The notes beneath the pieces are model-generated. The model was not told the origin of the DNA. It searched no databases and was given only the letters and a program-made list of their open reading frames with translations. A stretch of DNA of 42,987 nt from an uncultured Bacilli bacterium (GTDB lineage Bacteria > Bacillota_I > Bacilli_A > RF39 > UBA660), in NCBI GenBank assembly GCA_944358875.1, contig CALVRZ010000011.1, positions 1-42,987 of the forward strand, in the 5' to 3' direction. This document shows positions 40,663 through 42,786 of the stretch, in pieces. Within the stretch, counting starts at the first letter, position 1. Each line of letters opens with the position of its first letter. The translations under genes were made by a program, and so were the position numbers.

Positions 40663-42240
40663 TTACTGTACATTGAATGGTGATTCTAACGTACCATTTC
40701 CTTGTAATTGAACTGATGATTTAAGTGATATGACAGGTCTGATACCATTGGTAGCGTTCGTATAGTTATTGTCAACATATCCATCATATCTTAATCTCCA
40801 CATGTATACATGATTATTCACAAAGCTGGCAGGACTCATCGTCCAAAAGGAATTACCAGTAGATAAATAAAAACTAGAATTATTAATAGTATATACTCCT
40901 CCTGCCATGGATATTTCATCGGTTGTTATTAAACCAACAGGATATGTTAATGCTCTGTTGCCATCTGTTATGTCATTTACAGTGAAGGAATCATTTTTTT
41001 GATTGCATTTTAAATCTGGAGCATAGTTTCTTACAATTCTCTCATATACTTTGTAATATACTACATTATTGCCATAACCTTCATTATTATTCACACTTCG
41101 ATCATTACAATAGATCACATCTGCAATTTTGTCACTATATCCTGCATCTTGAATATTTGTTTTATACCAATTATCTACAGCTATCTTTATTATACTACTA
41201 TATGTATTAGTTGTAGCCTGACTATATGACGTTGTCCTTGTGTTTCCCGGACAAATTGTCGTTGATTCACATTCATTATCTATTCCCATCATATAGCCTA
41301 CATAGGCATTATCTCCATATGTTGAATTATATGCACTTATTCCAATTTGTCGATCTTCGCTGCTTTCTCCATTGGCATGGGCACTTGTTCCATCATAGAT
41401 TAATCGAATAGATCCATCACCATTTATTCTAATGATGCGCCAATAATAGCCTGCAAACTTGACATAGTTATTTTCTACTGCTCCTCTAAAATAATATGTC
41501 GTTCCATAGTCATCTTCAGTTGCATATATTCCTTCATCAGTTGTGGCTGTTTGGGTAAAATCTGGTGTACCTTCATTTGCTGTTAAACCTAATTTCTGTA
41601 ATGTCTCATATGCAGGGTTTATATTTTCACCAGTATTACATACACAAAAAACTTTCCATTCGCCGTTGATTCGTCTGTTTTCACATTCATTGGTACATTC
41701 TATAGTGGAAACACAGCTATCATTTCCTGCTTCTTCACTGGTTTGAAAACTTGTTATTGGTACTTCTCCTTCATTATAGATTATATCATCTGGACCTTGT
41801 GTTTCTGTAGCATAACCTGTTCTTACGCCTATTTCTACGGTTATATCACTATCGGATGTATTCTTTATGACCATTGGGACTGTTTTAGATGTGCCACTTT
41901 CTAGTTGTCCTTTTGCTAACATTGTTAAATCATCTGATACTTGGGCTATTATGACACCACTTGGTAATGTTGTTGGACTTATCATCTTATAATACATTCC
42001 ATATGATATCATACCATCCATATCATTTTCAACTACGGCATTAAATCTAAGTTTAGAATTTGCGCTTACTTTTAATTCTTGAGTTCCATTAATCTTAAAT
42101 TTATATACCATATTAGTATCCATATTAACCATATTTGTTTCAACACTTGATGTAAACATTGCATATGTTCCATATATCGTTGCACCTGCCAAAGTAATAA
42201 TTAATAATAACAATAGATAATATTTCTTAATAAACTTCAT
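40663..42240 (-). CDS. Large secreted protein with TasA-like N-terminus and DUF6273-like C-terminal domain
   Basis: About 525 residues from the ATG at 42240, which has AGAGG 9 bases upstream; the in-frame TTG three codons earlier is unlikely. A signal peptide (about 1-24) runs into GTYAMFTSSVETN, the pattern seen after the signal of TasA/camelysin-type biofilm proteins. A beta-sandwich-like region follows to about 160, then a Cys-rich segment with six Cys (about 175-205). The C-terminal domain contains FAGYYWRIIRINGDGSIRLI, SFWTMSPASF and NGIRPVISLKSS, which recalls DUF6273/C-type-lectin-like surface domains. No sortase motif. Probably a cell-surface or matrix protein; family names are from memory. 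Confidence 0.75.
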   Translation of the reverse strand: MKFIKKYYLLLLLIITLAGATIYGTYAMFTSSVETNMVNMDTNMVYKFKINGTQELKVSANSKLRFNAVVENDMDGMISYGMYYKMISPTTLPSGVIIAQVSDDLTMLAKGQLESGTSKTVPMVIKNTSDSDITVEIGVRTGYATETQGPDDIIYNEGEVPITSFQTSEEAGNDSCVSTIECTNECENRRINGEWKVFCVCNTGENINPAYETLQKLGLTANEGTPDFTQTATTDEGIYATEDDYGTTYYFRGAVENNYVKFAGYYWRIIRINGDGSIRLIYDGTSAHANGESSEDRQIGISAYNSTYGDNAYVGYMMGIDNECESTTICPGNTRTTSYSQATTNTYSSIIKIAVDNWYKTNIQDAGYSDKIADVIYCNDRSVNNNEGYGNNVVYYKVYERIVRNYAPDLKCNQKNDSFTVNDITDGNRALTYPVGLITTDEISMAGGVYTINNSSFYLSTGNSFWTMSPASFVNNHVYMWRLRYDGYVDNNYTNATNGIRPVISLKSSVQLQGNGTLESPFNVQ

Positions 42241-42263
42241 TTTTATCAACCTCTCTTTTTATA

Positions 42264-42319
42264 CACAAAAAACTACAAAGAAATCAGTCTAGTATCTACT
42301 AAACTTATCTTTGTAGTTT
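42264..42319 (-). terminator. Intrinsic terminator/attenuator just upstream of the secreted protein gene
   Basis: Perfect 12-bp arms AAACTACAAAGA (42319-42308) and TCTTTGTAGTTT (42281-42270) on the minus strand, with an inner TAGTA/TACTA pair, followed by a run of six T. It ends about 25 bases before the start codon at 42240. It therefore either ends an upstream transcript or attenuates the secreted-protein mRNA. The plus side is also followed by a T-run (42324-42335). Confidence 0.75.
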
Positions 42320-42340
42320 GCGATTTTTTATTTTTAGTGG

Positions 42341-42374
42341 CTTGGGTTAATTTATACCCCCCCCCCTAGTATAC
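42341..42374 (-). promoter_or_regulatory. G10 tract flanked by promoter-like hexamers
   Basis: Ten consecutive C on the plus strand (42357-42366), that is G10 on the minus strand. TTGTAT lies upstream and TATAAA directly downstream on the minus strand, with 14 bases between the hexamers. The tract is a striking outlier in very AT-rich DNA. Whether it is a promoter spacer or part of a leader RNA cannot be decided by eye. Confidence 0.45.
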
Positions 42375-42447
42375 AATAAGTTAACAATTTAAAATTCAAT
42401 TTTTGCATAGGGTGGCACCACCTTTCAGTTCATTTTTGGATTATTTT

Positions 42448-42477
42448 ACTTTAGACCTGTTCAATTAACTGTGTCAA
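42448..42477 (-). promoter_or_regulatory. Candidate distal promoter of the secreted protein gene
   Basis: -35 TTGACA (42472-42477) and -10 TAAAGT (42448-42453) on the minus strand, 18-base spacer. If used, it makes a leader of about 200 nt containing the GGTGG/CCACC hairpin, the G10 tract and the terminator hairpin. Confidence 0.4.
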
Positions 42478-42483
42478 TTGTCT

Positions 42484-42526: not shown

Positions 42527-42786
42527 TAAGTATAACAAATTTTTTATTTAACAGCAAGATTATTTTTTTAAATTTATTTAGAATTATGATTTTATTAGAT
42601 TAATATTTCTGATGTATTAACTTCTTAGACTTGTATGTCAAAAAGAATGAAAGTTAGAATAAACTTTACCTCTCCTTTATAATAATTACAACATAGTATT
42701 TAACAATTATATTTTTTTGTGACATCTCTAGGTAGTTAATATATCTTGAAAAAAAATTTTTATTAAGTTACTATTGTTTAAAAAAA
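42527..42786. other. Gene-free AT-rich stretch
   Basis: No coding region of convincing length on either strand. A minus-strand AAAGGAGAGG at about 42673-42682 looks like a ribosome binding site but has no start codon behind it. TTGACA on the minus strand (42636-42641) lacks a good -10. Nothing else supported. Confidence 0.6.

Follow-up and report, generated by a model that had tools for sequence, protein, structure and literature searches.

Ten consecutive G residues on the minus strand of a contig from an uncultured Bacilli bacterium lie inside a short leader ORF, which is followed by a predicted intrinsic terminator and then by a gene for a secreted protein. The same element surrounds every tract of nine or more G in the genome, 21 in all (1.31 Mb in 56 contigs, tracts being counted at nine or more G). 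We hold with good confidence that it is a phase-variable transcription attenuator, in which slipped-strand changes in the length of the leader would control ribosome-mediated antitermination. The window referred to below is the whole stretch of DNA that was analyzed, 42,987 nucleotides in length, and the element is laid out in it as follows:

42529 to 42557, minus strand: probable promoter TTGCTG-N17-TATACT with TG before the -10, a consensus match only.
42418 to 42426, minus strand: Shine-Dalgarno of the leader, GAAAGGTGG, 9 nt 5' of the ATG, read from the sequence and kept in type A copies.
42352 to 42408, minus strand: leader ORF of 18 codons, MQKLNFKLLTYCILGGGV*, in the short phase (predicted OFF); the same ORF stands in 10 type A copies.
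42357 to 42366, minus strand: the G10 tract, read from the sequence and the putative frame switch inside the leader ORF.
42273 to 42356, minus strand: long-phase extension, open from the tract to a TAG at 42275-42273 by frame analysis.
42267 to 42318, minus strand: predicted intrinsic terminator, a hairpin (42318-42271) with T6 (42272-42267), from the predicted fold.
42255-42250, minus strand: Shine-Dalgarno of the gene, GAGAGG, read from the sequence.
40663 to 42240, minus strand: secreted-protein gene, 525 aa, with a SipW/TasA-type N-terminus (...IYGTYAMFTSSVE), read from the sequence.

The tract is present where an earlier note on this DNA had described it, and that note was right that such a run is not neutral; dinucleotide shuffles predict only 0.08 occurrences of eight or more consecutive G in the window. 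Slippage, which it had proposed as the point of the tract, still appears the likely one. The gene behind it does encode a predicted secreted protein, and the strong hairpin reported between tract and start codon is there and matters: its stretch has a predicted folding energy of -23.1 kcal/mol (z -6.2), and it places a predicted intrinsic terminator between leader and gene. A simple terminator scan missed it, because the scan was limited to loops of 3-8 and the stem is broken by internal loops. A hairpin is predicted at this place in 29 of the 29 copies of the genus (this genome and its congener G001), at -16 to -23 kcal/mol, and in three of them (L016, L022 and L025) the outermost pair has gone from A-U to G-C with both sides changed. 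What the earlier note had not seen is that the tract lies in an ORF with a Shine-Dalgarno, and that the same element accompanies all 21 tracts. A C-rich stretch (CCTCCC, CCACCC in the window, 42417-42409), which could pair with the leader Shine-Dalgarno or with the G tract, adjoins that Shine-Dalgarno or sits inside the leader, and recurs in other type A leaders and in the leaders of G159 and G340.

In the window, the leader ORF reaches a TAA stop 2 nt past the tract, and frame analysis shows that the long phase, whose TAG falls in the 3' arm of the terminator, is reached by losing one G or gaining two. The tract is not a translational switch within the coding sequence of the gene, as the longest frame ends at 42273 and the gene starts at 42240. 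We propose instead that the leader ORF would be transcribed and translated through the G tract. In the G10 phase, the ribosome would halt 2 nt past the tract, with about 35 nt still to go to the terminator, so that the hairpin could form and transcription would end 5' of the surface-protein gene (OFF). Slipped-strand mispairing that removed one G or added two would bring the leader into the frame that is open through the terminator; the ribosome would then cover the hairpin, the terminator could not form, and the gene would be transcribed, its own Shine-Dalgarno serving for translation (ON). Each of the 21 elements would switch its gene independently.

This model has a close precedent in the pil1 and pil3 loci of Streptococcus gallolyticus (Danne et al. 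2014, PMC3894217), where a variable repeat likewise lies in a leader ORF with a surface structure encoded downstream, and where a short leader ends well short of an intrinsic terminator (by 39 bp) and a long one in or past it. For pil1, attenuation was established through mutated leaders, a deleted terminator and variants of the repeat: expression is low when the leader stops 28-39 nt before the hairpin and high when it reaches the hairpin (PMC3894217). OFF forms the majority in both systems, among cells there and as predicted for 20 of the 21 leaders here. The differences are that the repeat is a G homopolymer here and GCAGA there, that there are 21 copies against two loci, that the genes here are monocistronic-looking and encode SipW-type secreted proteins rather than sortase pili, and that the mechanism here is predicted from sequence. 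As in trp-type ribosome-mediated attenuation, translation of the leader would decide whether the terminator forms; unlike there, no regulatory codons are seen, and an inherited frame rather than ribosome stalling would decide. In the literature searched, we found no repeat-driven leader-peptide attenuation outside the S. gallolyticus pili.

The earlier note had assigned the slippage to a promoter spacer, with tract length setting the distance between TTGTAT (42376-42371) and TATAAA (42356-42351), and had compared this with porA and opc of Neisseria, which share with the present case a poly-G 5' of a surface gene. Both hexamers and their 14-nt spacer are indeed present, but as a promoter they do not hold up: the tract lies inside a leader ORF that is predicted to be transcribed and translated, TTGTAT consists of leader codons (TAT TGT ATA, Y-C-I), and the hexamers beside the tract vary among the copies. 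None of the 11 type B copies has TTGTAT, nor does L020 of this genome or any congener copy, and L016 (G12-TAAATTA) lacks TATAAA as well. Moreover, a transcript initiated at these hexamers would miss the leader ORF, which all copies conserve, and the terminator would still lie in its path. Most intergenic copies instead carry a TTGtCA-N17-TG.TAATAT-like site 5' of the leader Shine-Dalgarno, and the site of the window is of the same type and in the same relative position. With promoter-like sites in that position and TTGTAT unconserved, we therefore discard the promoter-spacer model as extremely improbable. Some copies directly behind an upstream ORF may be transcribed from that ORF. Eight of the nine genome copies of a repeat, GTACAAAATAATTCGCAA, stand just 5' of leaders (e.g., L011, L012, L013, L016, L022, L024 and L026 in this genome, G000). 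Most type B copies have about 100 nt of extra AT-rich, promoter-like spacer separating the gene from the terminator, and this could allow the switch to be bypassed. This spacer is conserved (TTACTACAAATATGTTGTAA ... TATATAAT, about 90-190 nt past the tract, e.g., in L013, L019 and L023), is found in part in G001 too, and might hold a second promoter.

The other suggestion of the earlier note, a long leader from TTGACA-N18-TAAAGT in which the G tract takes part in RNA folding, came closer: that site exists and a long leader fits better, but the tract probably acts through the reading frame and not through folding. A rival of a wider kind is an environment-sensing leader, a classical attenuator or RNA element in which folding of the G run, or its slow glycine codons, would do the work and the length of the run does not switch. 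A leader peptide and a terminator are present as it would need, and the whole leader folds better than shuffled sequences (z -3.5), in a structure that pairs part of the G run. We nevertheless rate it as very unlikely, considering that no Rfam family matches at its gathering score, that near-identical copies differ in tract length, and that the peptides are fully unlike between genera, yet the G run and the frame logic stay. A known riboswitch or other Rfam RNA was also rejected, as the matches to CRISPR-repeat, snoRNA and PreQ1 families were weak and all below threshold.

The case for a frame switch rests on comparison of the copies. All 21 follow a common plan: a Shine-Dalgarno, then a short ORF that spans the tract, then TATAAATTA(A)CC or something very near it, and finally a hairpin with its T run; in other words, the simple repeat lies within a leader ORF with a ribosome binding site in 21 of 21. 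The leader peptide comes in two kinds: type A (MQKLNFKsLTYCILGGG) in 10 copies, and type B (M....NKPMFV[RM]GGG, with variants) in 11. Behind 20 of the 21 elements stands a secreted-protein gene, intact behind L027; for the remaining one, L026, the contig ends too early. Tracts measure 9-12 G in these 21 copies, 9 or 10 in G001, and 9-11 in G409-411, three Bacilli MAGs brought in by a scan for the DNA pattern. In every one of the 21 copies, exactly one frame is open into the terminator and stops 58-136 nt past the tract, the hairpin starting at about 35-47 nt, while the other two frames stop within 19 nt. The same one-open-frame design is found in 8/8 copies of G001 and 28/28 leaders of G409-411. 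Short leaders stop 24-43 nt (median 35) 5' of the hairpin, or 30-61 nt (median 39) in G409-411, and long ones stop in or past it, so that by frame analysis the frame sets the leader stop either well before the terminator or at it.

For a single copy, shuffling gives a 40-46% chance that exactly one frame is open to the start of the hairpin, so the strength of this observation lies in its repetition across copies; these are paralogous, however, and the counts are therefore not independent. Given the weak figure per copy and the relatedness of the copies, we used a test based on substitutions, in which the observed substitutions were placed at random and in-frame stops in the open frame were counted. 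For type A, type B and G001, 2.5, 3.8 and 2.4 stop-bearing sequences were expected and none was seen (P 0.037, 0.009 and 0.014, respectively); for G409-411, 10.6 were expected and again there was none (P below 5e-5). The position at which the open frame of G409-411 terminates is usually constant, within the 5' arm of the hairpin (...TFFHYDIRAG* or ...FFHYDLKE*), even though the spacer in front of it differs in length and sequence. A decayed type B leader, L275 (G000:C32:6900-8000, minus strand, 573-370; G000:C32:7420), has an interrupted tract (GGGAGGGGGGG) and a different hairpin, with only the C-terminal end of a surface gene left behind it; in this one case, the tract has decayed along with its gene.

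Twenty of the 21 leaders are in the short phase and predicted to be OFF. The exception, L028, is long and stands behind a thioredoxin-like ORF; an automatic ON call for L023 was rejected, its ATG lying only 3 nt past the Shine-Dalgarno. Long-phase copies thus make up 1/21 in this genome, 4/8 in G001 (four copies with G10 short, four with G9 long) and 7/28 in G409-411. Between two G001 copies, L041 (G9, long) and L049 (G10, short), the 110 nt that follow the tract match at 100% and the 60 nt that precede it at 98%. With flanks this similar, the phase differs by one G, and the repeat number thus varies between near-identical paralogues of the congener. The predominance of short leaders is itself unexpected, as at most one long copy in 21 has a probability of 0.002 under random phases, and all ten type A copies share one short phase despite tracts of G9, G10 or G12. 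Both the OFF bias and the common type A phase need selection, a population bottleneck or another mechanism, such as slippage at the RNA level.

The last of these would leave the attenuator as it is and have the frame shifted on the G run by RNA polymerase slippage or ribosomal frameshifting, so that a tract of fixed length would give constant low readthrough and no inherited switch. It would agree with the ten type A copies being in one phase despite unlike tract edges (G10-TA, G10-TG, G9-ATG, G12), and with 8 of the 11 type B copies holding one phase by similar edge changes, as if the phase were held. Against it stand the G9 and G10 copies with near-identical flanks in the congener, the spread of the G409-411 copies over phases, and the use of a similar tract as an ordinary translational switch in sister genera. 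We therefore regard RNA-level slippage as unlikely, and DNA-level slippage within each locus as the probable basis of the switch. Three sites are common to G000 and G001 (L009/L029, L015/L055 and L028/L057; 84-87% identity upstream), and at these the leader peptide differs between the species; an unlike peptide at the same site means that leaders within a genome seem to be homogenized.

Beyond these genomes, the arrangement of Shine-Dalgarno, ATG and G9 was found in 15 genomes of 14 genera among 386 of the same family, using a pattern that misses type A leaders. In G028, G097, G159, G229, G242 and G340, which belong to sister genera, a long ORF whose N-terminus is SipW-type or type IV pilin-like follows the tract in direct fusion, in frame in some copies and out of frame in most, which, judged from sequence, is ordinary translational phase variation. 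The homopolymer switches of Campylobacter and Neisseria are similar in their poly-G of 9-12, one ON frame in three, surface genes and many loci. The sister genera have this direct form; the window differs from it in that its tract lies in a separate leader ORF with a terminator before the gene. Genus g75, in the same family, also has the attenuator form (G078, G210 and G303), with leader ends as in G409-411 and similar genes; L278 of g75 is a partial exception, in which two frames come near the hairpin.

Other arrangements were observed as well. G323 has a leader MLTNTNIGGG with G9 or G10 at nine loci (L255-L261, L183 and L194), at most of which the longest frame ends 40 nt past the tract, without a clear hairpin; a third variant may therefore exist. 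A Gastranaerophilales MAG, G412 (L121, L206-L230), contains no fewer than 119 runs of nine G or longer. Several lie in short leader ORFs 5' of genes resembling type IV pilin genes; L206 and L210 are direct fusions, and in L218 and L230 a hairpin comes soon after the leader. Another phylum may be using the same device. In G001, G097, G159, G229 and G340, contigs often end at or just past the tract or element, so that these surface genes are broken up, and MAGs probably give too low a count of them.

The N-termini of the downstream proteins (...GTYAMFTS, ...LAWWTWSTS) are what we take to be SipW/TasA-type signals. The genome encodes a SipW/archaeal-type signal peptidase (TIGR02228, 104 bits, above cut-off), and MutS1 is also present. 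For the 525-aa protein, all Pfam matches were below threshold (including a weak one to DUF6273), PDB sequences and NCBIfam gave no match, and structure prediction from three sequences gave no confident fold (mean pLDDT 34.7). It is 26-27% identical to the proteins behind the attenuators in L091 and L170. A region common to the window gene (40663-42240) and L027 (1236-2000), LQKLGLTANEGTPDF...YYFRGAVENNYVKFA.YWRIIRINGDG.IRLIYDGTS, stands behind N-terminal parts that differ, which suggests domain exchange between copies of two surface-protein families. These proteins are presumably displayed at the surface, where they may have a role in evading immunity or phages.

We put forward, tentatively and at somewhat less than even confidence, that a single G-tract leader module serves as a contingency system across the family and is put to two uses, as a fused translational switch in several genera and as a terminator-separated antitermination switch in at least two, and that nearly all 21 surface genes of this genome would be silent at once. 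The sister genera would let a transcriptional and a translational version of one switch be compared as they occur in nature. Because homopolymer length can be counted in existing metagenomic reads, the ON/OFF state of the 21 genes would be predictable from sequence. Attenuation appears to control the whole surface repertoire in these uncultured bacteria; if this is true, the element would be a genome-wide on/off shuffler of the cell surface, and the near-silence of 21 surface genes would amount to antigenic variation.
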